Positions 27,554-47,176 of a DNA stretch of 64,000 nucleotides are shown here, piece by piece. Both the position numbers and the translations under genes were made by a program. Each line of letters starts with the position of its first letter. Positions within the stretch are counted from its first letter, which is position 1. This stretch comes from Brachybacterium massiliense. GTDB taxonomy: Bacteria; Actinomycetota; Actinomycetes; Actinomycetales; Dermabacteraceae. The DNA is taken from positions 930,001-994,000 of the forward strand of contig NZ_FXXB01000008.1 in assembly GCF_900184245.1 (NCBI RefSeq), read 5' to 3'. The notes below the pieces were generated by a model. That model was not told the origin of the DNA. It did no database searches and saw nothing but the letters and a program-made list of their open reading frames with translations.

Positions 27554-27626
27554 GCGCCCGTAGCTTAACGGATAGAGCATCTGACTACGGATCAGAAGGT
27601 TGGGGGTTCGAATCCCTCCGGGCGCG
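27554..27626 (+). tRNA. tRNA-Arg, anticodon ACG
   Basis: The 73-nt cloverleaf has acceptor strands GCGCCCG/CGGGCGC, D arm, anticodon stem TCTGA/TCAGA with loop CTACGGA (anticodon 27587-27589), and T arm with GTTCGAATC. The sequence continues with an encoded CCA (27627-27629). The 3' part from 27593 onward is supplied by prophage attL. At the reconstructed empty site the bases after the core read CTTT, so the uninterrupted host gene would not encode CCA. Confidence 0.95.
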
Positions 27627-27912
27627 CCACACTCGAGGCCCCGTCACCACCAGGTGACGGGGCCTCTCCCGTTTCGATCCACGAGATCGGCACGCCCGTC
27701 GAGAGCGCCCACAGCTTGAGCGTCGAGCGCCGAGGCGTGCTCTGCCCACGCTCGGCGGCGTTGACGCCCTGGCGTGACAGGCCAGCGTGCTCGGCGAACT
27801 GCGACTGGTCCATGCCTGTCATCTCCCGCGCCTTGCGCAGGCGATCGGCGATCGTCCACTGAGGAATAGTGCCCGGCTGATAACTGATGGTCATATGACT
27901 AACCCTAGTCAT
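27592..27912 (-). CDS. XRE-type phage repressor whose 3' end is formed by attL
   Basis: A 106-residue HTH protein (ADRLRKAREMTGMDQSQFAEH then LSRQGVNAAERG is a lambda-repressor-like HTH, residues 22-57). An ATG at 27894 would give 100 residues. The last ten residues, ending EGFEPPTF, are read antisense through the tRNA-Arg 3' end. The stop TGA at 27592-27594 needs host base T27592. In excised phage that base would be C, giving TGG and 23 more residues, starting WLGSTGSRP and ending RRVPAAA, with the stop at 48232-48234, 17 nt before the integrase ATG. This fits a repressor truncated and stabilised by integration. The frame also covers the terminator at 27635-27666 antisense. Confidence 0.85.
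   Translation of the reverse strand: MTRVSHMTISYQPGTIPQWTIADRLRKAREMTGMDQSQFAEHAGLSRQGVNAAERGQSTPRRSTLKLWALSTGVPISWIETGEAPSPGGDGASSVARPEGFEPPTF
27593..27627 (+). repeat. attL core (35 bp, inside tRNA-Arg)
   Basis: A 35-bp identity with 48302-48336. It starts in the 3' strand of the anticodon stem and runs to one base past the discriminator. The flanking bases differ: T before and C after here, C before and T after at attR. Confidence 0.93.
27635..27666 (+). terminator. Phage-supplied terminator after tRNA-Arg
   Basis: A perfect 14-bp stem (GAGGCCCCGTCACC with its complement) around the loop ACCA, followed by TCCCGTTT. It ends tRNA transcription in the lysogen and lies antisense inside the repressor gene. 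Confidence 0.8.
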
Positions 27913-27939
27913 GTGACCGACAGATGACTATGCCCTAGA
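27892..27939. promoter_or_regulatory. Operator sites at the repressor start
   Basis: An inverted repeat ATGACTA-ACCC-TAGTCAT (27895-27912), extended to ten bases per arm with one mismatch, overlaps the repressor start codons. A second, partial site has ATGACTA at 27924-27930 followed by CCTAG. Placement suggests repressor autoregulation. The minus-strand promoter was not resolved. Confidence 0.6.
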
Positions 27940-27953
27940 TCCGAAACAGGCAC

Positions 27954-27991
27954 GTGTCGCCTTGACGACACATGCTCGCGTAGTGCATCAT
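27954..27991 (+). promoter_or_regulatory. Early rightward promoter with an overlapping inverted repeat
   Basis: TTGACG (27962-27967), an 18-base spacer and CATCAT (27986-27991), seven bases before the ATG at 27999, so the transcript may be leaderless. GTGTCG and CGACAC (27954-27971) form an inverted repeat across the -35 box and may be an operator. Confidence 0.5.
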
Positions 27992-27998
27992 CCGACGC

Positions 27999-28229
27999 AT
28001 GACCACAACGCGACTTCTGTCTAGTTCGGGAGTTGCCGAGCGCCTCGGCATCTCTCGGCAGACCGTCCCGCAGTGGGTTGCCGCGGGCAAGCTCAACCCT
28101 GTCGGCAAGATCGACGGCCCGAGCGGTGCCTACGTCTTCGACGTGGAGCAGATCGACAGCCTTGCTGCTGCCCGCGCTGCCGAGCTCACTGACGAGCTCG
28201 CCCGTCTCACCACTGAGGTGACGCGATGA
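27999..28229 (+). CDS. MerR-like HTH protein, candidate Cro or excisionase
   Basis: A 76-residue protein with an N-terminal winged-helix signature SSGVAERLGISRQTVPQWVAAGKL and a helical C-terminus. It is the first rightward gene, diverging from the repressor across 86 bp. In the BPs-type rep-int-cro arrangement this position holds Cro. HTH_17-type proteins are also often excisionases, and sequence alone does not separate the two. Confidence 0.7.
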   Translation: MTTTRLLSSSGVAERLGISRQTVPQWVAAGKLNPVGKIDGPSGAYVFDVEQIDSLAAARAAELTDELARLTTEVTR

Positions 28230-28237
28230 TGCGCCGC

Positions 28238-28711
28238 TCAGTCCCAGGCGGCGCGTGGCCGGTACTGGTATCCGCGTCCGAGCATCAGGGCGGCGCTGTA
28301 CTCGACGCCCGCCCCGCTGGTGTCCACCACGTCGGCCGACAGCTGGACCACGCCAACGTGCACCCCGGCACGAATCGCTGCATCGAGCGCGCCACCCGGA
28401 CGCACGCTCGCCTGACCGAGCTTCGGCCCTCCGCTGATGCTGCCGCGCTTGACCGTGAGCAGCTCGTGCACTTCAACCTTGGGAGCACCGCTGGACGTGC
28501 GTCCCGGCGCGAGGACCGCCCAGACGTTGCGCCGGCGCTTGCCGTCAGCGAGCCGCAGTCGATCGGCCTGGAATCCGGCTCCGAGCGCAGCCTCGACCAC
28601 CTCGCCCTGCCACTCGACGGGCGCCGGTCCCTTCCAGGGCTTCGGCGGGCCACCACCGCTCATCTTGTCGAGTACGGCATTGGCCTTGCTGAGCATCTGT
28701 CTGATCTCCAT
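28238..28711 (-). CDS. Hypothetical phage protein on the lysogenic strand
   Basis: A 157-residue protein I do not recognise. It starts MEIRQMLSKANAVLDKMSG, followed by a Pro/Lys linker and a predicted beta-rich domain (VVEAALGAGFQADRLRL, VEVHELLTVKRG, VHVGVVQLSADVVDTS). No signal peptide or membrane helix. I chose the minus strand because the overlapping plus-strand frame has the Arg/His/Leu make-up of an antisense shadow. Opposite orientation to the lytic genes suggests expression in the lysogen, where exclusion or lysogenic conversion is possible but unsupported. Confidence 0.55.
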   Translation of the reverse strand: MEIRQMLSKANAVLDKMSGGGPPKPWKGPAPVEWQGEVVEAALGAGFQADRLRLADGKRRRNVWAVLAPGRTSSGAPKVEVHELLTVKRGSISGGPKLGQASVRPGGALDAAIRAGVHVGVVQLSADVVDTSGAGVEYSAALMLGRGYQYRPRAAWD

Positions 28712-28737
28712 GCCGCTCAGCCTATGGCGGTGACCCG

Positions 28738-28842
28738 ATGAGCGCGCACGAGGTCGAGATGCTGCTGACCGCAGCCCTGCTCTCCACTGTCCCCGTGAGC
28801 GCCGTCGCTCTCGTCGTGCACCTTATCCGGGGCAGACGATGA
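28738..28842 (+). CDS. 34-residue single-helix membrane peptide
   Basis: A small frame of mostly hydrophobic residues (MLLTAALLSTVPVSAVALVV) ending in HLIRGRR. Its stop overlaps the next ATG (ATGA), a spacing seen throughout this early operon, which supports real translation. Function unknown. Confidence 0.45.
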   Translation: MSAHEVEMLLTAALLSTVPVSAVALVVHLIRGRR

Positions 28843-29303
28843 CCGGCCGCACGCTCAAGCACGGCACGCAGACCGGCTACGCCTACCACGGGTGCCGGTG
28901 TGCTGACTGCACCGATGCGCACCGGCTCGCCGAGGCCGGTCGCCGCGCCCGACGCGCTGCCCGCCTCGCAGCAGACCAGGACATCCCCCACGGCAAGCCC
29001 AACGGGTACAGCACGTTCGGATGCCGGTGCGAGCCGTGCCGGCAGGCGATCAGCGAGTACCGCCGTGACCTCCGGCAGCGCCGCAAGAACGGCGACCCGA
29101 TCCGCAAGCTCGCGCCCCGCCGCCCCGCGCCCGCGCCGCCCGAGTGCGAGCGCCTGCACGCCGATGCCGTGCTCGACGTGCTCGAGGCCCGCGCCCGCGT
29201 GCTCGAGAAGGCCGTCTCCCGCCGGCACCCCGGCGCTGCCCAGCGCCGCATCGAGGTGCTGCAGCTGCTCGCCGCTCTCAAGCGCCACGGGATCGCCCGA
29301 TGA
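28839..29303 (+). CDS. Phage protein with two Cys-rich CRCxxC modules
   Basis: A 154-residue basic protein with two copies of a small motif: HGTQTGYAYHGCRCADC near residue 8 and HGKPNGYSTFGCRCEPC near residue 52. Each has H-x6-H/F-x-C-R-C-x2-C spacing that could bind zinc. An Arg-rich linker and a helical C-terminus follow. Similar HG-GY-CRC-C modules are common in small proteins of actinobacteriophages; their role is unknown. Confidence 0.65.
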   Translation: MTGRTLKHGTQTGYAYHGCRCADCTDAHRLAEAGRRARRAARLAADQDIPHGKPNGYSTFGCRCEPCRQAISEYRRDLRQRRKNGDPIRKLAPRRPAPAPPECERLHADAVLDVLEARARVLEKAVSRRHPGAAQRRIEVLQLLAALKRHGIAR

Positions 29304-29671
29304 GCGCCCCGGTGCAGCTCGACCTGCTCTCGCAGCTCGACTACGACCCCCGCCACGACGCCCAGCGCGCCCTGATGCTCCGCTACCTCGACGGCAAGCC
29401 CGAGACCTACCAGGACCGCTACGACTTCTGGTGCCTCACCCCCGGCGAGGCATGCCCCGGCTGTGGGTACGTCTTTCGCGCCGGCGGGCACGACTCAAGC
29501 GGCGACCACCACATGACGCCCGGCCGCACCGAGTGCGAGGGGCGCATCGCCTACCGCAAGCACGCGCAGCACGCCGCAACGCACGGCACCCCTGCCGACC
29601 TCGAGCGCGCTATCAGCGCTGCCGCGCCCTGCTGGGCCGCTGACGACCTCCGCGCCGAGGTGACCGCATGA
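29300..29671 (+). CDS. Hypothetical phage zinc-finger-like protein
   Basis: A 123-residue protein with CPGCGYVF near residue 52, followed by HDSSGDHH and a later Cys, a plausible metal site. Upstream it is acidic and aromatic (DGKPETYQDRYDFWCL). ATGA overlap with the previous gene. A second ATGA at its own stop opens an 11-codon frame that leads nowhere. Function unknown. Confidence 0.6.
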   Translation: MSAPVQLDLLSQLDYDPRHDAQRALMLRYLDGKPETYQDRYDFWCLTPGEACPGCGYVFRAGGHDSSGDHHMTPGRTECEGRIAYRKHAQHAATHGTPADLERAISAAAPCWAADDLRAEVTA

Positions 29672-30097
29672 CTACCCCCGCACGCGCTAACGCGCCGCCC
29701 TGACCGGCCTGCTGACAACTCCATAGCATCCCCGCGCACTGAGCGGGGCGACTGCCCAGGGCGAGACACCGGGACGCGCACGAGCCGACTGCCAAAGGGC
29801 TCAGGGATGACGGACTCCCTCATTCAGTGTTCCGGCTCCGATGAGTAGGCGCGATCGGTCAAGGCAGGCCCGGACGATCACACAGCACCCCTCCACCGAC
29901 CTGCTCAACACCCCGGCCCTGACCAGATGAGTAATCCCCATCAGGTGACCCGCGACCGATCGACGGCATACCGACCGACCGACCGGAGTGTGCTGGTCCT
30001 CCCCAAAGCCTGGGGGGACCAGTCTCCCTCCCTCCAACTCCCTCTCTCCCTCCCAGAGTGATCCCACCCCACCAGCAGGCACCAGGAGGTGCAGCAG
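29672..30097. other. 426-bp non-coding stretch of the prophage early region
   Basis: No credible gene beyond an 11-codon remnant at its start. It contains CCGA tetramers (near 29980), a strong hairpin at 29993-30022, and a nearly pure pyrimidine run (30023-30055) before the ribosome site of the next gene. It may hold a small RNA, a terminator or the phage replication origin. Confidence 0.5.
29993..30022 (+). terminator. Hairpin followed by a CT-rich tract
   Basis: CTGGTCC-T-CCCC pairs with GGGG-GGACCAG around a short loop, with a one-base bulge. Pyrimidines follow rather than a T run, so termination is likely but not certain. Confidence 0.5.
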
Positions 30098-30310
30098 ATG
30101 CCCTACAACACCAAGATCACCAGCTCGCCGATGCACACACACCCCTGCCCCCTCTGCTCCCGACCTACCCGCCGTGACGGCCGCTGCCGCACATGGAACT
30201 GCCTGAACCGCTTCCCCGATCCCGCCGAAGCACGAGAGCAAGCCCTCGCCGAGATGCGCGAGACCATCCGCACCGCACGACAGAACAGAACGGATAGATC
30301 CCATGACTGA
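30098..30310 (+). CDS. Small zinc-ribbon-like phage protein
   Basis: A 70-residue protein with paired motifs CPLC and CRTWNC (residues 17-35), a likely zinc site, then a helical basic tail. AGGAGG lies eight bases before the ATG at 30098, so this start is firm. The stop overlaps the next gene by eight bases. Function unknown. Confidence 0.6.
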   Translation: MPYNTKITSSPMHTHPCPLCSRPTRRDGRCRTWNCLNRFPDPAEAREQALAEMRETIRTARQNRTDRSHD

Positions 30311-30744
30311 ACCCATCCAGACCCCCACCGGCACCCTCACGATCCAGCGAACCTACGAGGTCGGCCGCACCTTCGTGATGGTCACCAAGGACGAAGACAG
30401 CAAGGGGTTGCGCGTCCCGACCTTCGAGCTGCTCGCCGCAATCGACGCCGCCGAGCCCGAGTCGATGCGCGCCTACCTCCGCGAGACCGTCGAACACACC
30501 TACCTCGAGAACATGGCCGTGCCGGCCACCGAGCGCGACACCATCAGCGAGTCGATCGCATCGTTCAAGGGCGAGACCACCGAGCGCGAGATCCCCGAGG
30601 CCGACTCCCCCCGAGGACGTGGACGAGCACCCGGCCCCGGCCGTCACCGAGCGCCTCGCCCTGCTCGAGTGGATCGCCACCCTGTACCCCGAGGGCACCT
30701 GGGATCAGCACCGGTGCGCCGTCGAGTGGGTGCTCGACCGATGA
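30303..30744 (+). pseudogene. Hypothetical phage early gene with a +1 slip at a C6 run
   Basis: The frame from the ATG at 30303 gives a normal acidic protein for about 100 residues (to EREIPEAD), then collapses into Arg/Gly/Pro. Skipping one base in the C6 run at 30607-30612 restores a normal sequence (EDVDEHPAPAVTERLALLEW ... CAVEWVLDR). That frame ends at 30744 with an ATGA overlap to the next gene, as neighbours do. It may be a one-base insertion, a sequencing error or +1 programmed frameshifting. The restored product is about 146 residues, with no recognised domain. Confidence 0.65.
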
Positions 30745-30983
30745 CCGCCCGCGCCGAGTCCGTCGCCCCCGTCTCCACCGAGACCCGGCAGCACCTCCGC
30801 GCCCACCGCGACGAGCTGCACTCCCTCGCCGGCACGCTCGAGGTCACCCGCGACGAGCTCCGCGCCGACGCGCTGCTCGGCGCACCGATCACCCTCGACA
30901 CGCTCCGGCTCGTGCGCGACGCCGCCGACCTGCTCACCATCGCCGCCCGCCGCCTCGACCCCGACCAGGAGACCACCCGATGA
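30741..30983 (+). CDS. Hypothetical phage helical protein
   Basis: An 80-residue, Arg/Leu/Asp-rich, probably all-helical protein (RQHLRAHRDELHSLAGTLE ... LRLVRDAADLLTIAARRL). Start overlaps the restored stop of the previous gene and its stop overlaps the next start. It is in phase with the unrestored frame from 30303, so without the slip it would be the C-terminal end of a longer fusion. Function unknown. Confidence 0.55.
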   Translation: MTARAESVAPVSTETRQHLRAHRDELHSLAGTLEVTRDELRADALLGAPITLDTLRLVRDAADLLTIAARRLDPDQETTR

Positions 30984-31234
30984 CGACCACCCCCACCCCT
31001 CGCGTGGCCGGGCGCGTGCCGGCACAGTGGCAGGTGCTCACCAGCGAGCAAGCTGCCGAGGCCCTGGGCATGTCCCCCGAGGCCCTCCGCACCCTCCGCT
31101 CCCGAGGGGGTGGCCCCCGGTACCGGCAGCTCTCCCCCTCCCGGATCGGGTACACAGTCGGCGATGTCGTCGCCTACCTAGAGCAGTGCTCGGTGGAGCC
31201 GAAGGGGAAGGGCAAGCGCAGTGGGAGCGCGTGA
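30980..31234 (+). CDS. Excisionase/MerR-like HTH protein
   Basis: An 84-residue protein with a helix-turn-helix of the HTH_17 type (LTSEQAAEALGMSPEALRTL, then GGGPRYRQLSPSRIGYTVGD and VVAYLEQ). Such proteins serve as recombination directionality factors or small regulators in phages. Being far from int it is a rival to the gene at 27999 for the Xis role. ATGA overlap with the upstream gene. Confidence 0.65.
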   Translation: MTTTPTPRVAGRVPAQWQVLTSEQAAEALGMSPEALRTLRSRGGGPRYRQLSPSRIGYTVGDVVAYLEQCSVEPKGKGKRSGSA

Positions 31235-31493
31235 TGCCTGGTCCTCGATCCCGTACCGGCAGCGGCAAGCGATCAAGGGAGAGCTGCTCGCACGCGATGG
31301 ACTCGTGTGCTGTGTGTGCAAGACACCGATCGCATCGATGAGCGTCGCAACGATCGAGCACAAGCGTGAGCGCAACGCAGGAGGAGCACTGCTCGACTAC
31401 AACAACCTCGGCCTCGCGCACCCGCGATGCAACTACGGCCGGCACGGATCGTCGCAGCGGACGCGAGTGATCGACGCGCGCGCGTTCTTCTGA
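31221..31493 (+). CDS. HNH endonuclease
   Basis: A 90-residue HNH nuclease with a structural zinc site (CCVCK ... HPRCNY) and the catalytic segment IEHKRERNAGGALLDYNNLGLAHPRC. In many HK97-type phages an HNH protein lies just before the terminase and is needed with it for DNA cutting and packaging; this position matches. The start is probably the GTG at 31221, inside the previous gene. Confidence 0.8.
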   Translation: MGARDAWSSIPYRQRQAIKGELLARDGLVCCVCKTPIASMSVATIEHKRERNAGGALLDYNNLGLAHPRCNYGRHGSSQRTRVIDARAFF

Positions 31494-31573
31494 CGTGGCG
31501 ACACACAGAACACCCCGCGCCCCGCTTCTTTTTCCCCGACCCGCCCACCAAAAAACGGCTCTGACCAGGAGGG

Positions 31574-33718
31574 ATGCGGACCCGCATGGCACGCTCCACC
31601 ACCACCCCGACGCCCCCCGAGATCGGGGCAGATCAGCCTCGATCGTCCGTGATGTTGCCCGGTCTGGACCCGAAGCAGCCCGATCTCGCCGAGCTCGAGC
31701 TCGCCACGCGCCGAACGATCGCGGCACGCGAGGCACAGGGGCTGCTCGATGACCTCGACGCGGCGATGATCGCTCTCGCGATCGCTGACGCGCGCAAGCT
31801 GGACCTCACGATCGACCAGGGACGGCCGTCCGGGCGCGCCAAGCTGATCCAGGCGATGAGCGACGTTCTCGAGGGCATCCCCGCACCGGATGACGAGTCC
31901 CACGACGCGCTCGACGCCTTCCTGGCCGCGATTATGGGCCACCAGCTCGAGGACGAGGACGAGCAGCGCGACCAGTACCTGCCGATGGTGGAGCCGCCCG
32001 AGCCGGGGACCGGGATGCAGGAGACCGGCGTTCGGTGGACGCTCCGCGCCCGCGCCGAGGCCGGACTGTCCCTCGCCGCGTGGGAGGCGCACGAGCGGCT
32101 CGCGCTCATGGCCGCGCACGACCTCGACCGCGCGCTGACCGTCGGCGCGCCGTCCGGGTACGCGCTGCTGGCCGGCGTGATGCAGACCGTGCTCGAGCGG
32201 CTGCCACGCCCCGAGACCGTGGACTCGACCGCTCTCGATGAGCTGCTCGCCGCCGTAGTCGAGCCGCCCGAGGCGAACCCGTTCACCGCGCTGCCGCCGG
32301 CGAAGCACCACCCCGAGCGTGACGAGTCCTGGCTCTCCGAGGGCGAGGAGATCGCGGCGCTGAACCGCGCCCGTGGCCGGCACCTGATGCCGTGGCAGCG
32401 TAAGGCGATCGACGTGGCGACCGAGTACCGGCTCGATGACAAGGGCCGTCGCCGGTACCGGTACGGCGAGGTGGTCATCACCGTGCCCCGGCAGTCCGGC
32501 AAGACGGATGTCGTCGGCCCCGTCCAGCTGCACCGCGCGATCACCCGCGGCGAGCCGACCGCGTGCTGGTACACCGCGCAGACCGGTGCCGACGCGCGCA
32601 AGCGCATGATCGATCTGATCCAGGCCGTCGAGGAGTCCCACCTCCGCGTGCTGTTCACCTCGACCCGCGCCGCCGGCGCCGAGGGGCTCAAGGTCAACGG
32701 CCGCCCCGGCTCGCACGTCTCCCGCTTCTCGCCCACGTTCTCGGCGCTGCACGGCGAGCACCCGCACCTCGTGACGATGGACGAGTTCTGGCACTACCGG
32801 AAGGATCTGGGCGACGCGCTGGACGGCGCGATCGAGCCGGGACAGATCACCCTCGGATCGCGCGCGCAGACGTGGCGGATCTCCACGATGGGCACGCACG
32901 CGAGCGACTACATGAACGAGATCGTAGAGCGCGGCCGCGCCGGCACCGACGAGAACATGTGCTACATCGAGTACAGCCTGGCCGACGGCGCGGATGCGTT
33001 CGACCCCGAGGAGTGGCCCCGCTTCCACCCCGCCGTGGGAAACACCATCTCGGTCGGCGACCTCGCCAAGCGCGCCGAGCGCGCGCAGCAGTCCCCCGCC
33101 CGCATCGCCACATGGAAGCGCGCCTACTGCAACGTGGTTGTCGCCTCGGACGGCTCCCTGATCGACCTGGCACGGTGGGACGACCTGCACGAGGAGGTGC
33201 CCTCGCCGCCCCGCGGCACCGTCACCTACGCGCTCGAGGTCGCCCCCGACGCCGTCTCCGCCTCGATCCTCGCCTGCTGGCGCGACGCCGACACCGGCCG
33301 CCGCTGTGTGCGGATCTTCGAGCACCGCCCAAACCCCGGCGAGTGGCTCGTGTCCCGCGTGCACGAGCTGTTCGACCAGTACGAGCCCCGCGCAGTTGCT
33401 GCCGACGCCGCCGGCCCCGCATCCCGCTTCGTCAAGCAGCTCACCGATGCCGGGCGCGAGATCCGCACGCTGAGCTATGACGAGTACGGGCAGGCTACCG
33501 AGGGGCTGCTCGAGGCCGTCGGCGAGGACGGCGACCTGATCCAAGACGGCACCGACGAGCTCCGCGGCCAGGCCGCCGTCGCCGAGGTCCGCAAGAGCAA
33601 CGGCGTGCGCCGATTCTCCCGCGACGGGGACCGGCCGATCCCCTCGATCATCGCCGCCGCCGTCGGCCTGTACGCGCACGAGTACCCCGAGCCGTCTGCC
33701 GCCTCGATCGTGCTCTGA
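31574..33718 (+). CDS. terL: Terminase large subunit with a duplicated N-terminal small-subunit-like region
   Basis: A 714-residue packaging motor. Walker A-like VPRQSGKT is near residue 304, Walker B MDEFWHY near 396, and an RNase H-type nuclease domain follows (ALEVAPDAVSAS, AVAADAAGPASRF, C-terminal GDRPIPSIIAAAVGLY). The first 240 residues are unusual: residues 61-121 and 170-229 look like two copies of one helical unit (GRPSG/GAPSG, M-x2-VLE-x2-P-x-P, ALD-x2-LAA). This resembles a small terminase subunit fused in front, and no separate small-subunit gene is seen. AGGAGG sits one base before the ATG at 31574 and 13 before the ATG at 31586; either may be used. Confidence 0.88.
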   Translation: MRTRMARSTTTPTPPEIGADQPRSSVMLPGLDPKQPDLAELELATRRTIAAREAQGLLDDLDAAMIALAIADARKLDLTIDQGRPSGRAKLIQAMSDVLEGIPAPDDESHDALDAFLAAIMGHQLEDEDEQRDQYLPMVEPPEPGTGMQETGVRWTLRARAEAGLSLAAWEAHERLALMAAHDLDRALTVGAPSGYALLAGVMQTVLERLPRPETVDSTALDELLAAVVEPPEANPFTALPPAKHHPERDESWLSEGEEIAALNRARGRHLMPWQRKAIDVATEYRLDDKGRRRYRYGEVVITVPRQSGKTDVVGPVQLHRAITRGEPTACWYTAQTGADARKRMIDLIQAVEESHLRVLFTSTRAAGAEGLKVNGRPGSHVSRFSPTFSALHGEHPHLVTMDEFWHYRKDLGDALDGAIEPGQITLGSRAQTWRISTMGTHASDYMNEIVERGRAGTDENMCYIEYSLADGADAFDPEEWPRFHPAVGNTISVGDLAKRAERAQQSPARIATWKRAYCNVVVASDGSLIDLARWDDLHEEVPSPPRGTVTYALEVAPDAVSASILACWRDADTGRRCVRIFEHRPNPGEWLVSRVHELFDQYEPRAVAADAAGPASRFVKQLTDAGREIRTLSYDEYGQATEGLLEAVGEDGDLIQDGTDELRGQAAVAEVRKSNGVRRFSRDGDRPIPSIIAAAVGLYAHEYPEPSAASIVL

Positions 33719-33727
33719 CCGCCCCCG

Positions 33728-33756
33728 CTGTCACGCCCTGTCACGCCCTGTCACGC
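33728..33756 (+). repeat. Short tandem repeat before the portal gene
   Basis: Three units of CTGTCACGCC (the last one base short) in the 78-bp gap between terminase and portal. Possible packaging-site or regulatory DNA, unproven. Confidence 0.6.
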
Positions 33757-33796
33757 AGTGCCCACCGCGCCGTGACGCCGCCCCAGCCCGTCCCGG

Positions 33797-34993
33797 ATGC
33801 TCCGGGGCATGAACTTCTGGCAGCGGCTGACCGGCAAGACGCCCGCGCAGCATGCCGCCCGCGCCGTCGAGGACAACTCCCCGATCGTGCGCCTGCCCTC
33901 CCGCGAGTCACTCCCCGACGCCTCGGACGATCAGGCGATCGGGCTCATCGGCGTGTACCGCGCGCTGCAGGTGCTCACCACCTCCGCCGGGCAGCTCCCG
34001 CTCCGCCTCGAGCGCGGAGGGCAGACCATCATCGACACCGCGAAGCTTCCCCGGCTGGTCAAGCGGCCCGATCCTGAGATGGACCGCTCTGACTGGATCG
34101 AGCAGGCCGTCCTCTCCCTCGCTCTCGACGGGAACCTGTTCCTCCGCAAGGTCACCGATCGCACCGGCACGCTCATCGCCGCCCGCATCCTCCCGCCGGC
34201 CGAGGTCACGGTCACCCGTGACCCCCGCACCCGCGTGCTCCGCTACCACCACCGCGGCGAGAAGCTCACCACCGCCGACGTGTACCACCAGACGCTCATG
34301 CGGCTGCCCGGCCGGGACCGTGGCATCGGCCCGATCCAGGCCGCCCGCAACGAGATCGGCGCAGCCGCCGACGTGCGCGACTACGCCTCGAACTGGTTCC
34401 GCGGCTCCGGCCAGCCGTCCGGGCTGCTCAAGTCCAAGGGCGCCAAGACCGCCGAGGAGGCCAAGGCACAGCGCGACCGCTGGAACGAGGCCGCGATGGA
34501 CGAGGACAACCCCACCGGCATCCGAGTGATCGGCGGGGACACCGAGTATGAGCCGCTGCTGCTCTCCCCCGAGGACGCGCAGTGGCTCGAGGTCCGCAAG
34601 TTCTCGGTGACCGAGTTCGCGCGCCTGTTCGGCATCCCGTCCGGGCTGATGCTCGTCACCCTCGACGGCAGCTCCATGACCTACTCAAACGTGGAGCAGG
34701 AGTGGCTCGCCTTCACCAGGTTCACGCTCATGTCCTACCTCCGCAAGATCGAGGAGGCGCTGACCGACCTGTCCCCGCTGGGCCAGACGATCCGCGTGGA
34801 CGTGGACGTGCTGCTCCGCTCCGACACCACCACCCGGTACGGCGCGCACCGGATCGGGCTCGAGGCCGGCTTCCTCACCCTCGATGAGGTCCGCGCGATC
34901 GAGAACCTCCCGCCCCTGACCGATGAGCAGCGCGCCGAGGTCATGGCCCGGCTGCTCTCCGCCGCACCCGCACTCGAGGAGCAGCCGGCATGA
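33797..34993 (+). CDS. HK97-family portal protein
   Basis: A 398-residue portal that forms the dodecameric DNA channel at the capsid vertex. Family features: GVYRALQVLTTSAGQLPL near residue 53, DGNLFLRKV, a PPAEVTV strand, and FSVTEFARLFGIPSGLM, then SNVEQEWLAF with the long helix. An ATG at 33809 (MNFWQRL) is an alternative start. It overlaps the protease-capsid gene by four bases. Confidence 0.88.
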   Translation: MLRGMNFWQRLTGKTPAQHAARAVEDNSPIVRLPSRESLPDASDDQAIGLIGVYRALQVLTTSAGQLPLRLERGGQTIIDTAKLPRLVKRPDPEMDRSDWIEQAVLSLALDGNLFLRKVTDRTGTLIAARILPPAEVTVTRDPRTRVLRYHHRGEKLTTADVYHQTLMRLPGRDRGIGPIQAARNEIGAAADVRDYASNWFRGSGQPSGLLKSKGAKTAEEAKAQRDRWNEAAMDEDNPTGIRVIGGDTEYEPLLLSPEDAQWLEVRKFSVTEFARLFGIPSGLMLVTLDGSSMTYSNVEQEWLAFTRFTLMSYLRKIEEALTDLSPLGQTIRVDVDVLLRSDTTTRYGAHRIGLEAGFLTLDEVRAIENLPPLTDEQRAEVMARLLSAAPALEEQPA

Positions 34994-36636
34994 CCACCAC
35001 CACCCTCACCCGAGACACCGTGACCTCTGACCGGCAGCTCGCCGTCGAGGTCCGCGCCAAGGACGACGCCGGCCGCACCTTCACCGGCATCGGAGTGCCC
35101 TACGACGAGGAGATCGACCTCTGGGGCATCCGCGAAAGGTTCGAGCGCGGCTCCGTCGAGCTGAACCCCGACGGCGTGCCCTCGCTCGTCCTGTGGCGGC
35201 ACGACGAGCCGATCGGACGGATCACCGCCGGCCGCGACACCGATGCCGGGTTCGAGATCGACGGCGCACTGTCCGACACCGAGCGCGGCCGCGAGGTCGC
35301 GACGCTGCTCCGCGACGGCGTGATCTCCCGCCTCTCGATCGGGTTCCGCCCCGAGGAGTACCGGATCGAGACCAACGAGGACGACGACACCGAGACCGTC
35401 ATCCACACCCGCGTGCGCGCGCACGAGTTCTCGCTCGTGCCGTTCCCCGCCTACTCCACCGCGACCGTCACCAAGGTTCGCCACCGCACCGCCCCGACCG
35501 ACCCGCCCCAGCAGGAGGACACCATGCCCACCGACACTCTCACCCGCGATGACCTCGACGCCCTCTCCGAGACCGTCACCGACAAGCTCTCCGACATCGA
35601 GCGCCGCTTCTCCGAGTACACCGCCGGCCCCGGCACCGACGAGCTCGCCGCCCGCGCCGAGGCGTTCGGCAGCTTCGGCGAGTGGGTCGCGGCGATCGCG
35701 AACGAGCGCGCCGCCGACCACGAGCAGGCCGTCGAGCTGTACCGCGACGTGACCACCTCCGACGTGCCCTCCAAGCTCGTCAACACCCCCGGCTTCATCG
35801 GTGACCTCACCAAGCGGATCACCGAGCGCCGCCGCTGGACCAGCCGCTTCAAGTCCCGCGCCCTGCCCGCCAAGGGCATGAGCGTGGACTACATCAAGAC
35901 GCTGCTCACCGCGACCATCGCCGAGCAGACCGAGGAGTTCGAGGCCCTCGCCAAGGGCGCCGGGTTCTCGGTCACCTCCGACAGCGCCCCCGTGCGCACC
36001 TTCGGCGGTGCCGAGACCGTCTCCCGGCAGGTGATCGACCGCTCCGAGGCGTGGGCGCTGACCGGAATGTTCGAGGCGTTCGGCATCCAGTACGCCCGCG
36101 AGACCGAGGCCGCCACCAAGGCGTACATCGTCGCGAAGATCGACGAGATCATGGCCAGCGGCGAGGCGGGCAGCGTGGTCGAGGTCCCCGAGGGCTTCGG
36201 CGCGTTCGACTGGATCGACGCGATCGTGGACTCCGCCGGGATCTTCGAGGACCGCGGCTACACCCTCGAGGAGCTCGCCGTCTCCCCCGACGTGTTCAAG
36301 CGCCTGGCCGCCGAGGCCGGCACCGACGGCCGCCCGCTGCTGACCGTGTCCAGCTCCGGCACCGGCAGCAACGTCGTCGGCACCGCGAACCTGCCCGCCG
36401 GCTCCGGCGAGCTGCTCCGCGTGCCCGTCTCCGTGCTGCACGGCTCCACCGGCCGCGCCCTGTTCTACGATCCCATCGCGATCGAGACCCTCGAGAGCCC
36501 GGGCGCGCCGTTCTGGCTGCAGGAGGACAACGTCCTGAACCTCTCCCGCGACTACGCCTGCTACGGGTACATGGCGCACATCACGCCGCACCCCGGCGCG
36601 CTGCTCCCGGTCAACTTCACCACCACCGCGGGCTGA
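34990..36636 (+). CDS. Fused prohead protease and HK97-type major capsid protein
   Basis: One 548-residue frame carries both functions. Residues 1-165 are an HK97-type prohead protease (FTGIGVPYDE, catalytic His in LWRHDEPIG, Ser in ISRLSIGF, then EFSLVPFPAYS). Residues 179-548 are the capsid protein, with an N-terminal helical delta-like region and the fold to ITPHPGALLPVNF. An in-frame ATG at 35524 has AGGAGG with ideal spacing, so a free 370-residue capsid protein can probably also be made. That would let protease-capsid fusion and plain capsid be produced in unequal amounts. No separate scaffold gene exists. Confidence 0.9.
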   Translation: MTTTTLTRDTVTSDRQLAVEVRAKDDAGRTFTGIGVPYDEEIDLWGIRERFERGSVELNPDGVPSLVLWRHDEPIGRITAGRDTDAGFEIDGALSDTERGREVATLLRDGVISRLSIGFRPEEYRIETNEDDDTETVIHTRVRAHEFSLVPFPAYSTATVTKVRHRTAPTDPPQQEDTMPTDTLTRDDLDALSETVTDKLSDIERRFSEYTAGPGTDELAARAEAFGSFGEWVAAIANERAADHEQAVELYRDVTTSDVPSKLVNTPGFIGDLTKRITERRRWTSRFKSRALPAKGMSVDYIKTLLTATIAEQTEEFEALAKGAGFSVTSDSAPVRTFGGAETVSRQVIDRSEAWALTGMFEAFGIQYARETEAATKAYIVAKIDEIMASGEAGSVVEVPEGFGAFDWIDAIVDSAGIFEDRGYTLEELAVSPDVFKRLAAEAGTDGRPLLTVSSSGTGSNVVGTANLPAGSGELLRVPVSVLHGSTGRALFYDPIAIETLESPGAPFWLQEDNVLNLSRDYACYGYMAHITPHPGALLPVNFTTTAG

Positions 36637-36641
36637 TCGCC

Positions 36642-36986
36642 ATGAGCGAGAGCACGGCACAGGACTGGCCGGCAGGCATGCCGGCCGTGGACCTCGGCAG
36701 CTACGTCAGATCGAGCGGCCGCGAGAGCGAGCTCGTGAACGAGCTCGCCACCGCTGCCGCGACGATGGTCGCCAGCAGCATCGGCAGCGCCGAGGTGCCC
36801 GATGCCGTGCTCTCGCAGGCGATCCTCGCCGTCGGCGCGAACCTCTACCAGAAGCGGACCTCGGCGACCGGTGCCGGTAGCTACGACTCGTCCGAGCTGG
36901 TCGGCAACCCGATGCGCCCCGCCCTCGACCCGATGACGCAGGCGTGGCCGCTGCTCCGGCCCTACGTGGGAGTGGCGATCGCATGA
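36642..36986 (+). CDS. Head-tail connector (gp6-like) protein
   Basis: A 114-residue, largely helical protein. The position right after the capsid gene and the sequence ELATAAATMVASSIG ... LSQAILAVGANLYQKR ... MTQAWPLLRPYVG match the gp6-like adaptor that docks under the portal. ATGA overlap with the next gene. Confidence 0.7.
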   Translation: MSESTAQDWPAGMPAVDLGSYVRSSGRESELVNELATAAATMVASSIGSAEVPDAVLSQAILAVGANLYQKRTSATGAGSYDSSELVGNPMRPALDPMTQAWPLLRPYVGVAIA

Positions 36987-37339
36987 TCACCGCCACCCTC
37001 ACGCAGATCACCGCCGAGGCCGCAGCGGCACTCGACGGGCTCGAGGTGACCGTCACGGACCAGCCGCACGACGCCGCCGGCGCAGTCATGGCCGGCGTGC
37101 CCGCGCTGCTGATCCTCCCCCCGTCCATCGAGTGGCTGACCCTCACGCACCGCACCGCGACGTGGACGGTCTACGCGCTCGCCCCGACCACGGACCCCAC
37201 CGAGGCTGCCGGGATCTTCGAGCCGATCCTCGACGCCCTCGCCGAGCCCCTCGGCCTCGACTCCGCCGAGCCCGAGACCTACACGATCGCCGATCGCACG
37301 TTCCCCGGCTACACCCTCACCCTCACCACCGAACACTGA
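36983..37339 (+). CDS. Probable head-tail joining / tail terminator protein
   Basis: A 118-residue alpha/beta protein (ITATLTQITAEAAAALDG, then ALLILPPSIEWLTLTHRTA, ending TIADRTFPGYTLTLTTEH). Size, fold pattern and position between the connector and tail tube suggest a tail-completion protein. The assignment rests on synteny more than motif. Confidence 0.6.
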   Translation: MITATLTQITAEAAAALDGLEVTVTDQPHDAAGAVMAGVPALLILPPSIEWLTLTHRTATWTVYALAPTTDPTEAAGIFEPILDALAEPLGLDSAEPETYTIADRTFPGYTLTLTTEH

Positions 37340-37352
37340 AAGAAGGCCCGTC

Positions 37353-37772
37353 ATGGCTGTCACCGCCCACAAGCTCGGCCCCGGCGTCCTCACCGTCGGC
37401 GAGACCGGCACCCTCCGCGAGTTCACCTCGCAGATCACCAACGCCCGCTGGACCCCGAGCGTCGATCAGGAGGACCCGATCGACGTGCTCTCCGGCGAGC
37501 AGATCGCCGACGACCCCAACATCACCTCGGTCATCGCCGGGACCTTCCTGCAGGAGTACGGCTCCGAGGCGCTCGTGACCTGGTGCTGGGAGCACCGCGG
37601 CGAGGTGCTGCCGTTCAGCTTCCAGCCCCGGTCCGACCAGCAGCTCGCGATCTCCGGCCAGTGCCAGGTGCTCCCCGTCGAGGTCGGCGGCGACGTGAAG
37701 GCACGCAACACCACGGACTTCGAGTTCCCCCTGATCGGCGATCCCACCTTCGGGACCGAGCCCGCGGTCTGA
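37353..37772 (+). CDS. Major tail tube protein
   Basis: A 139-residue beta-rich protein (GPGVLTVGETGTLREFTSQI, then VLSGEQIADDPNITSVIAGT and EFPLIGDPTF). Order in the module and the ending typical of short siphovirus tail-tube subunits support the call. GAAAGAAGG precedes the ATG. Confidence 0.75.
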   Translation: MAVTAHKLGPGVLTVGETGTLREFTSQITNARWTPSVDQEDPIDVLSGEQIADDPNITSVIAGTFLQEYGSEALVTWCWEHRGEVLPFSFQPRSDQQLAISGQCQVLPVEVGGDVKARNTTDFEFPLIGDPTFGTEPAV

Positions 37773-37774
37773 TC

Positions 37775-38161
37775 GTGGCGGGGCGCGAGGCAGGCATCCG
37801 GATCGAGGGGCAGCGCGAGCTACGCAAGTCCCTCCGCCAGGCCGGCGACGACCTCGAGGACCTCAAGGCGGCCCACAAGGCCGCTGCCGAGGTCGCCGCC
37901 GGCGGCGCCAAGCCGCTCGTCCCCGTCCGCTCCGGCCGCCTCGCCGGCACGATCCGGCCCGGCGGCACCAAGACGCAGGCCGTCATCCGCGCCGGCAAGA
38001 AGGCCGTCCCCTACGCCGGCCCCATCCACTGGGGCTGGGAAGCGCGCGGAATCGAGCCCTCGCCATTCCTGGCAGACGGCGCGAAGAATACAGAACCACA
38101 ATGGGTCGAGTTGTTTTATCAAGAGCTCGACAAAGCACTCAAGAAAGTTAAAGGCAAATGA
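37775..38161 (+). CDS. HK97 gp10-like tail-completion protein
   Basis: A 128-residue protein resembling the HK97-gp10_like family: GQRELRKSLRQAGDDLEDLK, then PVRSGRLAGTIRP, the GPIHWGW motif and PSPFLADGAKN. The start is the GTG at 37775. The last 25 codons are strikingly AT-rich compared with the rest (AAGAAAGTTAAAGGCAAATGA at the end), unlike neighbours, so the 3' end may come from recombination. The stop overlaps the next ATG. Confidence 0.75.
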   Translation: MAGREAGIRIEGQRELRKSLRQAGDDLEDLKAAHKAAAEVAAGGAKPLVPVRSGRLAGTIRPGGTKTQAVIRAGKKAVPYAGPIHWGWEARGIEPSPFLADGAKNTEPQWVELFYQELDKALKKVKGK

Positions 38162-38175
38162 ACAAGACCTATGTG

Positions 38176-39620
38176 GGCTCTTCGCGGTTCGTGGTGAATG
38201 ACCCTGCTGTAGCGGGTATTCACGCTACGGTTCTCGCGGCGCTGGCTAACAGGATACGGGTCCGGTAGTTCTCCGCGTTACGGAAGCCGCGGCCGGTGCG
38301 TTTGATGTTCTTGATGCCGGTGTTCGCTGCCTCGACTCGGGCGGTGGTCGCGCCGGTGACGATGAGGACCTCGATCGCGTCCCACCAGGTCACGACGGTG
38401 TCGTAGAGCTTGGTCGCCTCGGGCATGTTCGCGAGCTGGGCGAAGTAGCCCATCCGCATCCGTTCGTCCCAGGCCTGGGCGAGGGTGTCGGTGGCCAGCA
38501 AGCGGCGGAGCTGCTCCTTGATGCCCCAGGCGGCCGAGAGCTCGTCGGTGGGGTCATCGGTGCGGAACACCGACTCCAACCGCTCCCAGGCCCGTGGAGT
38601 GAGGGTGTCAGCGCCGCGTAGCAGCAGCATCCGGTGGGCCCAGGCCGGGTCGTCCTTGCGGCCGCGACGACCGCGATGGGTGCGGGCTAGGCGTTGACGG
38701 ACGGTGGTGACCATGTCGTTTCCGAGCTTGACGAGGTGGAACTTGTCGACCGAGACCGCAACGCGGGGCAGGTAGGTCCGCAGTGCTTTGCGGAACGCGG
38801 CCGAGGGATCGATGGCGACGATCTCGATCCGCTCCCGCCAGAGCTCGGAGCGCTGGGCGAGCCAGTCGCCGACGGCGGTGGAGTCCCGGCCGTCGACGAT
38901 ACCGAGGACCTGCCCGGTGGAGAGGTCGACCAGGGTCGTCATCCAGGGCTCGAACCGTCTCCAGGCACCGTCGTCGGTGCGGAACCAGCGCACCGACCGG
39001 TAGCGGTGCTCATCGATGCCCAGGCGCGTCACTGACACGTCCTCGGCGGTGGGCAGGACCACGGCGGCAGCCGCCAGCGCGGCCTGGACCAGCCACCACG
39101 AGACGCCATGGGCCCGGGCGACTTCCGAGGCTGCCCGGCCAGAGGTGATCACCGCGGAGACGACCTGATCCCGCAGCCGGGTCGTCGAGCGCGCGCGGTG
39201 CGGGACCTGGTCGGTCGCTTCCCAGAACGTGCGCCGGGCGCAGGCCGACTCGAGGCAGAACCAGCGCCGCTTGGCCCACACCACCGCCATCGCCCCGGCC
39301 ACGGGCACGTCTCGCACCTTCTGGGATCGGCGGGAGTGGACCTTGGTCGCGAGCACCCCGCACGACGGACAGCCCGGCGGCTCGATGGATTCGATCACCA
39401 CCCGCCGGCCTCCATCGGGCAGGTCGATCGCGTCGATGACGCGGTAGTCGGGCAGGTTGAAGATCGTGCTCGCAGCATCTCGCTGCGAACCCGTATTCTC
39501 ATGCACAGGCTCGTGGTCCTCTGGGATGTGGCTGTCTAGACAACACCCATCACAGCAGGACCACGGGTCGTTCTACGCCAGCGACGCGACGCTCTCCTTC
39601 ACCACGAGCCGCGAAGAGCC
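38176..39620. mobile_element. ISL3-family insertion sequence, 1445 bp
   Basis: Ends are inverted repeats of 23 bp with one mismatch: GGCTCTTCGCGGTTCGTGG at the left, with the right-end complement carrying GGCTC in place of GGTTC. One transposase gene fills the element, read on the minus strand. Intact ends, duplication and open frame indicate a recent, possibly active insertion. The direction opposes tail-gene transcription. Confidence 0.93.
38220..39506 (-). CDS. ISL3-family transposase
   Basis: A 428-residue DDE transposase. An N-terminal zinc ribbon (CPSCGVLATKVHSRR and CLESAC) precedes an HTH region and the catalytic core: first Asp in RLGIDEHRYR, second in VAIDPSAAFRKAL, Glu in ARVEAANTGIKNIKRTGRGF, the ISL3 C-terminal signature. 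Full length, no frameshift. Confidence 0.93.
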   Translation of the reverse strand: MHENTGSQRDAASTIFNLPDYRVIDAIDLPDGGRRVVIESIEPPGCPSCGVLATKVHSRRSQKVRDVPVAGAMAVVWAKRRWFCLESACARRTFWEATDQVPHRARSTTRLRDQVVSAVITSGRAASEVARAHGVSWWLVQAALAAAAVVLPTAEDVSVTRLGIDEHRYRSVRWFRTDDGAWRRFEPWMTTLVDLSTGQVLGIVDGRDSTAVGDWLAQRSELWRERIEIVAIDPSAAFRKALRTYLPRVAVSVDKFHLVKLGNDMVTTVRQRLARTHRGRRGRKDDPAWAHRMLLLRGADTLTPRAWERLESVFRTDDPTDELSAAWGIKEQLRRLLATDTLAQAWDERMRMGYFAQLANMPEATKLYDTVVTWWDAIEVLIVTGATTARVEAANTGIKNIKRTGRGFRNAENYRTRILLASAARTVA

Positions 39621-39886
39621 CCTATGTGACGTTCGAGCTGCTCGACGGGACCGTGCACGACAAGGTGCGCGTGCTCGCTGCCGACAAGGTGCGCGCCGAG
39701 GGGATCTGCCGCGACAACGGCTGGCCGCTGGTCGAGGGCCCCCGGTTCCATGTCGCACTGACCTACGCCACCGCCAAGCGCGCCGAGCACACCGACGCCC
39801 CGAACGTCGCCGCGTTCATGGACGACCTCGCCGATTACGCGCTCTCGACCGACGAGACCGAGGACGGCGAGCCGGACCCTACCTGA

Positions 39887-40026
39887 CCGGCTGGCGAGCG
39901 CACCTGGTCGCGCTCGCTATCCGCTCCGGCATCCCGGTCGCCGCATGGCTGGACGGCGACCCGCACGACCTCGAGACCGCCCTACTACTGATCGACCGAG
40001 AAAGCGAGGATAGTCATGGCAGGTAA
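39887..40026 (+). CDS. Gp T-like extension of the tail chaperone, -1 frame
   Basis: Overlapping the end of the chaperone in the -1 frame is a 48-residue sequence (YLTGWRAHLVALAIRSGIPV, ending ESEDSHGR at 40026) with no start of its own. It extends into the tape-measure start. This is the usual G/GT arrangement of long-tailed phages, where a minority of ribosomes slip back one base. The shift would occur at or before GAC-CCT (39875-39880). No textbook slippery heptamer is present there. Confidence 0.6.
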
Positions 40027-42304: not shown

Positions 42305-43542
42305 TGGCCTACACCCGCCCCGGTCGCCTGTACCGCAAGCTGCAGCCCGATCAGCCGCTGTTTCGCCTCACGGTCGAGGACGGCACCGACCTCCGCGACA
42401 GCACCCTGACCGGAGTGACGATCAAGCGGGGCGACGGCTCACCGGACGGCGGCGTGACTCCCTCGACGCTCGAGGTCGGCCTGTCCGCCTACGCCTCTAT
42501 CCGTTCTGGGCTGCACTGCTCGCTGTCCCTCACGGACTACGGGGCGCAGCTGATGAACACTCTCGTGGGCGCGTCCGCGAGCGTGATACAGCCGCGGTTC
42601 GCCGGCAGGATCGGCCGGCAGCACGTGGACGACCGCGGGCGCCGGCAGCAGACTACGCTCATGGCCGCGTCGTGGACCGCGCAGCTCGGCCGCGTCCGCA
42701 AGACCTACACCCCCGCGGTCGGCACCAACATCGCTACGGTCATCTCCGAGCTGATGACCGCCCCGGCGCTGCCGCGGCTGTCCGGCCCGACACGCCTCGC
42801 AACCTTAGACCAGTACGGAACGGTGCACCAGGCGCAGGACCCGCAGACCTACGGCGACATTGGCAAGTGGACCAGCGACCTCGGCATCAAGGCGATCGAG
42901 ACCCGCGCTGGCTCACAGCAGATCACCACGCACGCCGCACGGTGGGCCGACGCTCTCGCCAACATGGATTACTGGCTTCCGGTGATCCGCTCGCAGGCCC
43001 TCGCGCCCGCGAAGTGGCAGCAGGACTCCGAGGGCATCCCCCGCAACCAGCGCCTCACGTGGGGAGTCGGTGCCAGTACCAACACCGCAACGTGGGGCGA
43101 CGTGGACGACCCCAACGCCGTCGTGGTCGATCACGACCTCACGCACGCTCGATTCAACAATGAGGACCAGGTGCGCGCCGAGGGGTTCCGACTCCGCGCT
43201 CTCGAGTGGGAGTCCGCCTACTCGATCCCGAACGTCGAGATCGACCTGTTACACCTGCTCACGTCGCCCCGAAAGTACGATCGAGACCAGGCAGCGCGAC
43301 TGCTCCGGCTCGAGGACGGCGACCCCGTTTACCTGTCTGGAGACTGGCATCATCAGTTGCAGGGCATCCACTTCGTCACGGGGATCACCGAGACGATCAC
43401 CGGCACCGGCTGGACGCTCGCGCTCTCCCTCGCGCCGTCGCAGATCGTCATCGGCAGCGTCTCCCCCACCGTCCCCGCCCGCGTGTGGGACTCCGCGACC
43501 TATCCCTGGTCGGACGAGTCCCGCACCTGGAACGCCGCCTGA
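42304..43542 (+). CDS. Minor tail / tail-tip protein
   Basis: A 413-residue protein just after the tape measure, where Dit or Tal-type baseplate hub proteins lie. Mostly beta strand, with SPDGGVTPSTLEVGLSAYA, RFAGRIGRQHVDDRGRRQQ and a C-terminal GIHFVTGITETITGTGWTLAL typical of phage hub proteins. Only one such gene is present where two are usual, so it may combine both roles. A GTG three bases earlier would also couple it to the upstream stop. Confidence 0.7.
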   Translation: MAYTRPGRLYRKLQPDQPLFRLTVEDGTDLRDSTLTGVTIKRGDGSPDGGVTPSTLEVGLSAYASIRSGLHCSLSLTDYGAQLMNTLVGASASVIQPRFAGRIGRQHVDDRGRRQQTTLMAASWTAQLGRVRKTYTPAVGTNIATVISELMTAPALPRLSGPTRLATLDQYGTVHQAQDPQTYGDIGKWTSDLGIKAIETRAGSQQITTHAARWADALANMDYWLPVIRSQALAPAKWQQDSEGIPRNQRLTWGVGASTNTATWGDVDDPNAVVVDHDLTHARFNNEDQVRAEGFRLRALEWESAYSIPNVEIDLLHLLTSPRKYDRDQAARLLRLEDGDPVYLSGDWHHQLQGIHFVTGITETITGTGWTLALSLAPSQIVIGSVSPTVPARVWDSATYPWSDESRTWNAA

Positions 43543-43552
43543 AAGGTTCATC

Positions 43553-46554: not shown

Positions 46555-46943
46555 TGCCTCCCTGGCTCACTGACCCCGAGGGCGTCGCCGCGTTCGTCGC
46601 GGCGCTGCTCGCGCTGCTCGTCACGATCGCCGGCGGACTGCTGGCCGCGATCGCCGCGATCGTCGCGGTCTGGCGCGCCAAGGTCAAGCCGCTGCTCACC
46701 GACACCAGCAAGGCGGCGCGCACCGCCGCCGACCAGCTCACCCCGAACCACGGTTCGAGCGCCCGTGACTCGCTCGGCAGGATCGAGAACACCCTCGACC
46801 GGCTCGACCGCTCCATGTCCCGCCAGATCGGCGAGATCCGCGCCGACATGAACCGCACCACGCAGCACAACGACCGCCAGCACAGCGAGATTTTCCGCAG
46901 GCTCCACGCACTCGAAACCCCGATGGAGGACACCCGACCATGA
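46554..46943 (+). CDS. Membrane protein of the lysis cassette (DUF2746-like)
   Basis: A 129-residue protein with one N-terminal helix (VAAFVAALLALLVTIAGGLL) and a long charged helix/coiled coil (SLGRIENTLDRLDRSMSRQI). One-helix proteins of this shape accompany endolysins in actinophages and are thought to act in lysis timing or as holins. It shares one base with the lysin stop. Confidence 0.6.
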   Translation: MPPWLTDPEGVAAFVAALLALLVTIAGGLLAAIAAIVAVWRAKVKPLLTDTSKAARTAADQLTPNHGSSARDSLGRIENTLDRLDRSMSRQIGEIRADMNRTTQHNDRQHSEIFRRLHALETPMEDTRP

Positions 46944-47176
46944 ACAAGTACCGCGCCGCCGGCCCCGCCGAGATCAACCTCGGCCGCATCATCCGCTCCC
47001 CTAAGGCCCGCCTGTACGTCTACGGCGTGCTTGGCGCAGCGGCGCCGCTGCTCGTTTCCTACGGCATCGTCACCGACAGCGAGGTCGCCCTGTGGCTGTC
47101 CCTCGCCGGGACTATCCTCGCCACCGGTGGGCTCGGCCTCGCCTCGGCGAACGTGCCTACCGCGTCAGACGACTGA
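46940..47176 (+). CDS. Two-helix holin
   Basis: A 78-residue protein with two hydrophobic stretches (LYVYGVLGAAAPLLVSYGI and VALWLSLAGTILATGGLGLA) and a short acidic tail, the form of class II holins found after actinophage lysins. It would permeabilise the membrane for lysin release. ATGA overlap with the gene before. Confidence 0.7.
   Translation: MNKYRAAGPAEINLGRIIRSPKARLYVYGVLGAAAPLLVSYGIVTDSEVALWLSLAGTILATGGLGLASANVPTASDD

Follow-up and report, generated by a model that had tools for sequence, protein, structure and literature searches.

The window, that is, the whole 64-kb stretch of DNA analysed here, belongs to the 3.87-Mb genome of Brachybacterium massiliense and carries a prophage of 20.7 kb inserted in a tRNA-Arg(ACG) gene, the sole tRNA gene detected in the window by ARAGORN. 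The prophage is small and siphophage-like; it codes for a portal protein, a protease-capsid protein, a tape measure protein, an endolysin, a holin and an integrase, and a TerL-like match falls below the profile cut-off. An element identical to it is present in IMG/VR. The features considered in this work are the following.

27554..27629, plus strand: tRNA-Arg(ACG), the gene carrying attB (ARAGORN)
27593..48336, unstranded: prophage from the attL core to the attR core, flanked by a 35-bp direct repeat
27593..27627, unstranded: attL core, 35 bp
48302..48336, unstranded: attR core, 35 bp
27592..27894, minus strand: repressor gene rep, lysogen form, 100 aa from the likely start (phrog_2328, 2.3e-30; HTH_3, 3.3e-11)
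48232..48301, minus strand: severed 3' end of rep at attR, the phage-only tail including the codon next to the core
47390..48214, minus strand: tyrosine integrase gene int, 274 aa (Phage_integrase, 3.1e-15; phrog_1, 3.1e-31)
27999..28229, plus strand: divergent HTH gene in the Cro/excise position, 76 aa (HTH_17, 4.5e-07; phrog_66, 1.5e-07)
27884..27923, unstranded: inverted repeat over the rep start, candidate operator (18-nt arms, 83% complementary; consensus only)
27950..27975, unstranded: inverted repeat beside the early promoter-like site, candidate operator (10-nt arms, 90% complementary; consensus only)
27962..27991, plus strand: promoter-like site directed towards the divergent HTH gene (consensus match only)
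38176..39620: ISL3-family insertion sequence, with an 8-bp target duplication (38168..38175 and 39621..39628) read by eye

The longest exact repeat between the two ends of the prophage is the 35-bp core, CAGAAGGTTGGGGGTTCGAATCCCTCCGGGCGCGC. Perfect copies of it occur only twice in the genome, at attL and attR, and there are three weaker matches (82% over 57 bp, 77% over 56 bp and 92% over 26 bp). The core is the 3' half of the tRNA gene, whose anticodon arm gives rep its stop codon. The attB site lies at the 3' end of the tRNA gene, which stays whole in the lysogen; when attB was rebuilt in silico, tRNA-Arg(ACG) was still predicted. The initial annotation had also placed attB in a tRNA-Arg gene.

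The longest open reading frame of rep (27592–27912, minus strand) codes for 106 aa. It runs antisense into the att core, has no stop codon ahead of the core in the window, and ends at a TGA (27592–27594) that adjoins the core and exists because host base 27592 is a T. At attR the counterpart of this base, 48301, is a C, and the codon becomes TGG (Trp). Over the rebuilt attP the frame is 129 aa long: it gains 23 residues, WLGSTGSRPAVIPLRSRRVPAAA, which end in PAAA, an ssrA-like end, and it stops at 48232–48234. The attP core therefore lies within the rep frame, and integration alters the C-terminus of the predicted protein. The dependence of the stop codon on the host base, the 23-residue extension and its three terminal alanines had all been read from the sequence in the initial annotation; the coordinates of core and reading frame confirm the first, and the rebuilt frame reproduces the others. 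The proposed lengths of 106 and 129 residues hold for the longest frames only. Lengths of 100 aa in the lysogen and 123 aa in the phage are preferred because the start of the homologues aligns with M7 (codon 7, at 27894), the nearest natural full-length relatives (the database proteins P0001 and P0002) have 123 aa each, and an AGGG sits upstream of codon 7; M7 is thus the likely start. The HTH domain ends near residue 79 (Pfam profile). The family phrog_2328, annotated as 'transcriptional repressor', matches the lysogen form with 106 bits and the phage form with 114 bits, and the latter match extends into the tail (profile positions 1–122 of 128).

In the rebuilt attP, the integrase gene begins 17 nt past the viral rep stop, on the same strand. 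Its product terminates in MRSTVERLAA, so that it too has an alanine end (ERLAA), a feature absent from the initial annotation. The catalytic domain is its sole Pfam match, XerC-like profiles being below the cut-off. The tmRNA tag of the host, AEPKRTDFALAA, ends in ALAA, and the tags of six related genomes likewise end in LAA. An integrase 81% identical is found in one other of 38 Brachybacterium genomes (Brachybacterium sp. YJGR34, G015), and the same search recovered integrases of 40–48% identity in two more of these genomes and as a second copy in the genome of the window itself (G000:C5 281712–282500, L250; 41% identical to the prophage integrase).

The gene that diverges from rep had been described as Cro/Xis-like. 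An HTH gene is indeed in place and matches profiles of the excisionase type (HTH_17 over the cut-off, TIGR01764 below it), while the Cro-like label rests on position. Its product is 44% identical to gp20 of the Curtobacterium phage Barebow over 48 residues, and the records of some relatives name the gene RDF or excise. By the account of a review, a gene for a directionality factor is not apparent in integration-dependent systems (PMC9262239). In the control region, one promoter-like site was found, against 0.1 expected in shuffled sequences.

Natural proteins with the same frame and tail were sought with the phage form as query against about 5.8 billion proteins; the 99 candidates include 71 relatives at E 1e-12. 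P0001 (123 aa) is 93% identical to the window repressor. The exact 23-residue tail that the window attR predicts is found on P0016 and P0019, which come from metagenomes and whose heads have diverged. P0006 (100 aa) differs from the corresponding part of P0001 at a single position (99 of 100 identical) and ends in PPTF; to judge from their sequences, P0001 and P0006 are the phage and truncated forms of one allele in nature. Sorting by an expression on the tRNA-derived peptide classed 63 of the 71 relatives (46 phage-type and 17 truncated-type), and eight were unsortable. An AA end is present in 40 of the 46 phage-type proteins (27 of 33 when alike tails are collapsed) and in none of the 17 truncated-type proteins, in a set enriched for similar tails because the query included the tail of the window. 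On the strength of the natural full-length homologues and the alanine ends of the tails, a chance or spurious frame through the core was rejected.

Relatives were also collected from genomes. At E 1e-10 the phrog_2328 finder was positive for 167 of 396 genomes of the order, and also for four of 14 control genomes, so only high-scoring matches were used: at 1e-17 none of the 14 controls is positive, and five of 396 and 14 of 394 genomes are. When the repressor protein alone served as query, 47 of 148 relatives had a match at E 0.001, for the most part a weak HTH match. Altogether 33 distinct repressor loci, window included, were examined in genomes, as sets of 20 and 14 that have G224 in common. 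The repressor stops inside a tRNA gene (Arg, Asn, Lys or Thr) at 26 of them, the other seven being the inner copy of G041, G226, G387 (with a broken frame), G880, G900, G772 and G640. For 15 of the 26 the attP could be rebuilt from a second core of 19–85 bp. A second core of at least 19 bp was not found in the fetched stretch for the remaining 11 (G034, G224, G397, G335, G167, G208, G318a, G1007, G882, G1126 and G1123); 15-bp core matches in G208 and G1007 were dismissed as chance.

The 15 rebuilt phage forms end in AA (11), VA (2), SA (1) and RD (1, G189), whereas none of the 15 corresponding lysogen forms ends in AA, or even in a single alanine. Of the 24 171 stops in the same sequences that close a run of 30 or more open codons, 1.58% are preceded by AA; the binomial probability of 11 in 15 is 1.9e-17, a value that is too strong since the loci are related by descent. 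These counts also bear on the idea that the layout is a coincidence, with a repressor that ends before the tRNA gene, an antisense frame that is untranslated and a truncation of no meaning. Antisense frames of tRNA genes are readily over-called as protein, and the HTH domain is already over by about residue 79; but the open frame in the window, the full-length phage proteins that cross the core into tails of their own, and the frequency of tRNA stops and of rebuilt AA ends, the latter far above background, render such a coincidence extremely improbable.

Several loci have features of their own. The repressors at tRNA-Arg(ACG) use two antisense frames, reading RRDSNPQPSDP (G052, G335, G397 and G882) or RPEGFEPPTF (window, G015, G327, G318b and G930), and both stop in the anticodon arm. 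In G034, of the same genus, a repressor end joined to tRNA-Arg has lost its HTH domain (G034:C1 1892383–1892544, L064) and looks like a decayed prophage end. G041 contains a tandem double prophage at tRNA-Asn (G041:C1 589756–632095, L059 to L061), with about 42 kb between identical repeats of 85 bp; only the repressor adjacent to the tRNA gene is truncated, and the inner-junction copy retains its whole length, with PVAA at the end. Tandem prophages with integration-dependent immunity are known in Mycobacterium abscessus, as described in PMC9934374. Four short repressor-like HTH genes (81, 89, 82 and 83 aa) lie in a row after the integrase gene in L059 (18510–19617 of this locus, G041:C1 591010–592117). 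All four are devoid of the tRNA-derived part and of the tail, and are possibly extra repressors or decoys.

Forty-six further loci, including some from IMG/VR, were added; 39 were read and seven omitted as probable repeats of named phages. Nine full-length forms without a tRNA stop end in AA among the 39, of which at least two are named phages again, and the tRNA peptide forms the end of most of those whose frame stops at a tRNA gene or where the prophage border was trimmed. Six loci (L150, L152, L161, L175, L185 and L186) fit neither pattern or are unreadable. The IMG/VR provirus records L153, L154 and L155 are trimmed at the truncated end of the repressor, and the phage form is therefore not visible in them; L154, from a metagenome, is a 78% relative.

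Among 50 697 phage records, 266 match the phage form by tblastn, including 153 from Mycobacterium and 64 from Gordonia. In 26 phage records the repressor ends in AA in 15 cases. The other ends are AS (Barebow, Sneeze and Angel), VA (Typha, Phayonce and Elesar), PA (UmaThurman), RA (BlueFeather), AK (AGM3) and EP (Ryan and Popper). The 81-aa relatives of the Arthrobacter phages Ryan, Elesar and Popper have no tail, so the switch discussed below is not a property of every homologue; for the Arthrobacter phage Galaxy, the original description likewise reports no recognisable tags (PMC5513430). In the Brevibacterium phage AGM3 (L049), the annotated integrase beside the repressor is only 65 aa long; these Brevibacterium phages may therefore have kept the repressor but lost a working switch.

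A proven system of this kind is that of the mycobacteriophage BPs. According to published work, the long BPs repressor is inactive through degradation directed by its ssrA-like end, is stabilized by the substitution A135E, and is active in its short form; the integrase Int is likewise controlled through its C-terminus (PMC4557955, PMC9262239). The host base next to the core changes the third position of a Cys codon, which makes it a stop (PMC9262239). The prophage shares with BPs and cluster G an attP inside rep, an attB in tRNA-Arg, a 35-bp core and a stop created at the third codon position (as described in PMC9262239), as well as the gene order int–rep–divergent HTH gene and a tagged Int (as described in PMC4557955). 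In Angel, the cluster G sequence used here to stand in for BPs, a homologous repressor (tblastn 2e-17) continues through the same RPEGFEPPTF frame into a tail of its own. The differences are that the cluster G repressor and Int are only about 40% and 48% identical to those of the prophage, that the tail of Angel ends in KAS and its genome measures 41 kb against 20.7 kb here (insertion sequence included), that the Cys codon reported for BPs is a Trp codon here, and that the switch is proven for BPs whereas we infer it for this prophage.

Closer in sequence is the Curtobacterium phage Barebow (PQ868957), the best phage match, with repressor and Int 49.6% and 49.8% identical, a genome of 18.3 kb and the order int–rep–HTH gene; its repressor, however, ends in RRAS, and only seven of its 27 gene products match the prophage at E 1e-3. 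A prophage of the same genus, that of Brachybacterium sp. YJGR34, also uses tRNA-Arg; besides the 81% identical Int, which ends in ERAAA, it has a rebuilt repressor tail ending in AAAAA, but its repressor is 61% identical and the tail departs after WLGSxGSRPA. Gordonia phages, some with genomes of 16–18 kb, are described as having homologous repressors with alanine ends and attP inside rep; about half of the 27 Gordonia phages with a tyrosine integrase and an identified attP, together with those of the small cluster CW, are reported as integration-dependent, cluster CW differing in its use of tRNA-Lys (PMC5559632). The Bifidobacterium prophages Bb423phi2 and 689b-1, likened here from their description, are also small, and their phage forms were rebuilt in silico and have ssrA-like tags, but their site is tRNA-Met and their tail has 18 residues (PMC6109161). 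The same paper states that mitomycin C has no effect on most mycobacteriophages with systems of this type. Nine prophages of M. abscessus with integration-dependent immunity are described, and in many of them, though not in every one, Rep and Int end in XXXAA (PMC8092301), and UmaThurman and its relatives were announced with integration-dependent immunity (PMC4929511). The initial annotation had proposed a switch of this kind outside the mycobacteriophages. This is true, but the case is not the first and its kind not new, because the Gordonia phages and Bifidobacterium prophages have been published, as noted above. For Brachybacterium, a literature search that was thin on subscription journals found no published report of integration-dependent immunity.

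Taken together, these data make it very probable that the prophage controls immunity by a BPs-type switch that depends on integration, as the initial annotation had proposed; the homologous repressor, the frame, the core, the tagged Int and the natural tails support it at the level of sequence. The sequence shows that attP lies in the 3' part of rep and that integration swaps its last 23 codons for a stop supplied by the host; before integration int comes shortly after rep, on the same strand, and in the prophage it lies at the opposite end. In the phage state, rep and int would be co-transcribed, and the ssrA-like PAAA and RLAA ends of Rep and Int would be recognized by host proteases of the ClpXP type. 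The tail probably marks the repressor for destruction: the long form would be quickly removed, leaving immunity off, and the survival of Int would be decisive, the genome being integrated if Int persists long enough. Integration would then cut off the tail, and the short repressor would be stable, repress the early promoter and confer immunity; it would also part int from the rep promoter, which would remain at attL. That the long form is degraded and the short one active is ascribed to this prophage by homology with BPs. Points against the switch are G189, which was rebuilt in the same way and has no alanine end, the tailless Arthrobacter homologues, the phage repressors with ends other than AA, the bias of the protein search towards similar tails, and the insertion sequence inside the prophage.

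The insertion sequence bears on the state of the prophage. Its ISL3 transposase is over the NCBIfam cut-off and its ends are alike at 23 of 25 positions. It sits six codons into a short gene between a gene similar to Barebow gp9 and the tape measure gene. By its position the interrupted gene is a tail-assembly gene, but Barebow gp10 has no detectable match there. Because of this insertion the activity of the prophage is uncertain, and an open reading frame of 86 aa that starts just past the element, at 39626, may rescue the product, most of which it could supply. The layout might thus have been inherited without a working switch, either in a decaying prophage or with a tail irrelevant to stability, and the wide variation of the relatives in tail and terminal residues would be in keeping with this. 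We consider it unlikely: none of rep, int, the two cores and the tail frame is damaged, the identical tail is kept on P0016 and P0019 despite their diverged heads, and the 86-aa frame could make good most of the interrupted product.

With the BPs-type switch as the preferred reading, the composition of the tails can be considered further. A motif [VI][VIL]x[LI], VIPL in the window, precedes the end in eight of 15 phage tails (the 26 records minus near-duplicates and tailless ones), against 1.15 expected from shuffled tails. It was written after this first set and most of the second were already known. In the second set, six of 23 rebuilt or IMG/VR tails contain it (1.28 expected from shuffled tails, p 0.0009), and in a third, query-biased set that holds the window tail, seven of 33 database tails do (1.35 expected, also from shuffles, p 0.0002). 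The narrower form [VI][VI][PQH]L is present in one of 23 tails of the second set (p 0.10). Another pattern, [VIL]x[LI][VA], was dropped (p 0.06 in the second set, 0.55 in the database tails). The tail could combine an alanine end with a hydrophobic motif that docks a protease or adaptor, or that touches RNA polymerase where it binds the rep promoter. Such a role, a tentative and rather doubtful idea, would supplement the explanation given above and leave it standing. The excess over shuffled expectation in all three sets speaks for this role, as does the modest rise in Prep activity described for the stabilized long BPs repressor (PMC4557955); but the motif was defined post hoc, its narrower form hardly recurs, the third set was drawn with a query that held the window tail, and many short tails are without a VIPL-like motif.

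Heads and tails of the repressors are also exchanged at times. The head of P0016 is 89% identical to that of the YJGR34 prophage and 56% to that of the window, and its tail 48% and 100%, respectively. The similarity changes near residue 70, so that for P0016 there is no support for a breakpoint right at the core. P0011 and P0025 have a common tail and heads only 50% alike. Overall, similarity of heads and similarity of tails remain correlated, with a Spearman coefficient of 0.61 (378 pairs from 28 proteins), so that reassortment is occasional. One can speculate, with the odds against it, that the tail is an exchangeable cassette, a VIPL-like motif followed by an alanine degron, and that heads, which should set immunity specificity, are swapped relative to modules of tail plus int. 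If this is true, the attachment site in rep would lie at the seam of a switch that also lets phages trade immunity types.

The present data add Brachybacterium to the hosts of integration-dependent immunity. The 14 other rebuilt prophages come from genomes of seven families and from records of Curtobacterium, Rhodococcus and Mycolicibacterium; together with the window, they suggest that actinobacterial prophages commonly use this simple lysogeny switch, at several tRNA genes. Where gene calling or prophage detection cuts at attL, only the truncated repressor is given, and those who take such a repressor as an immunity marker must be aware of which of its forms is the active one. Testable leads come from the tail motif and from the reassortment of heads and tails, both on the action of the tag and on the diversification of immunity types.
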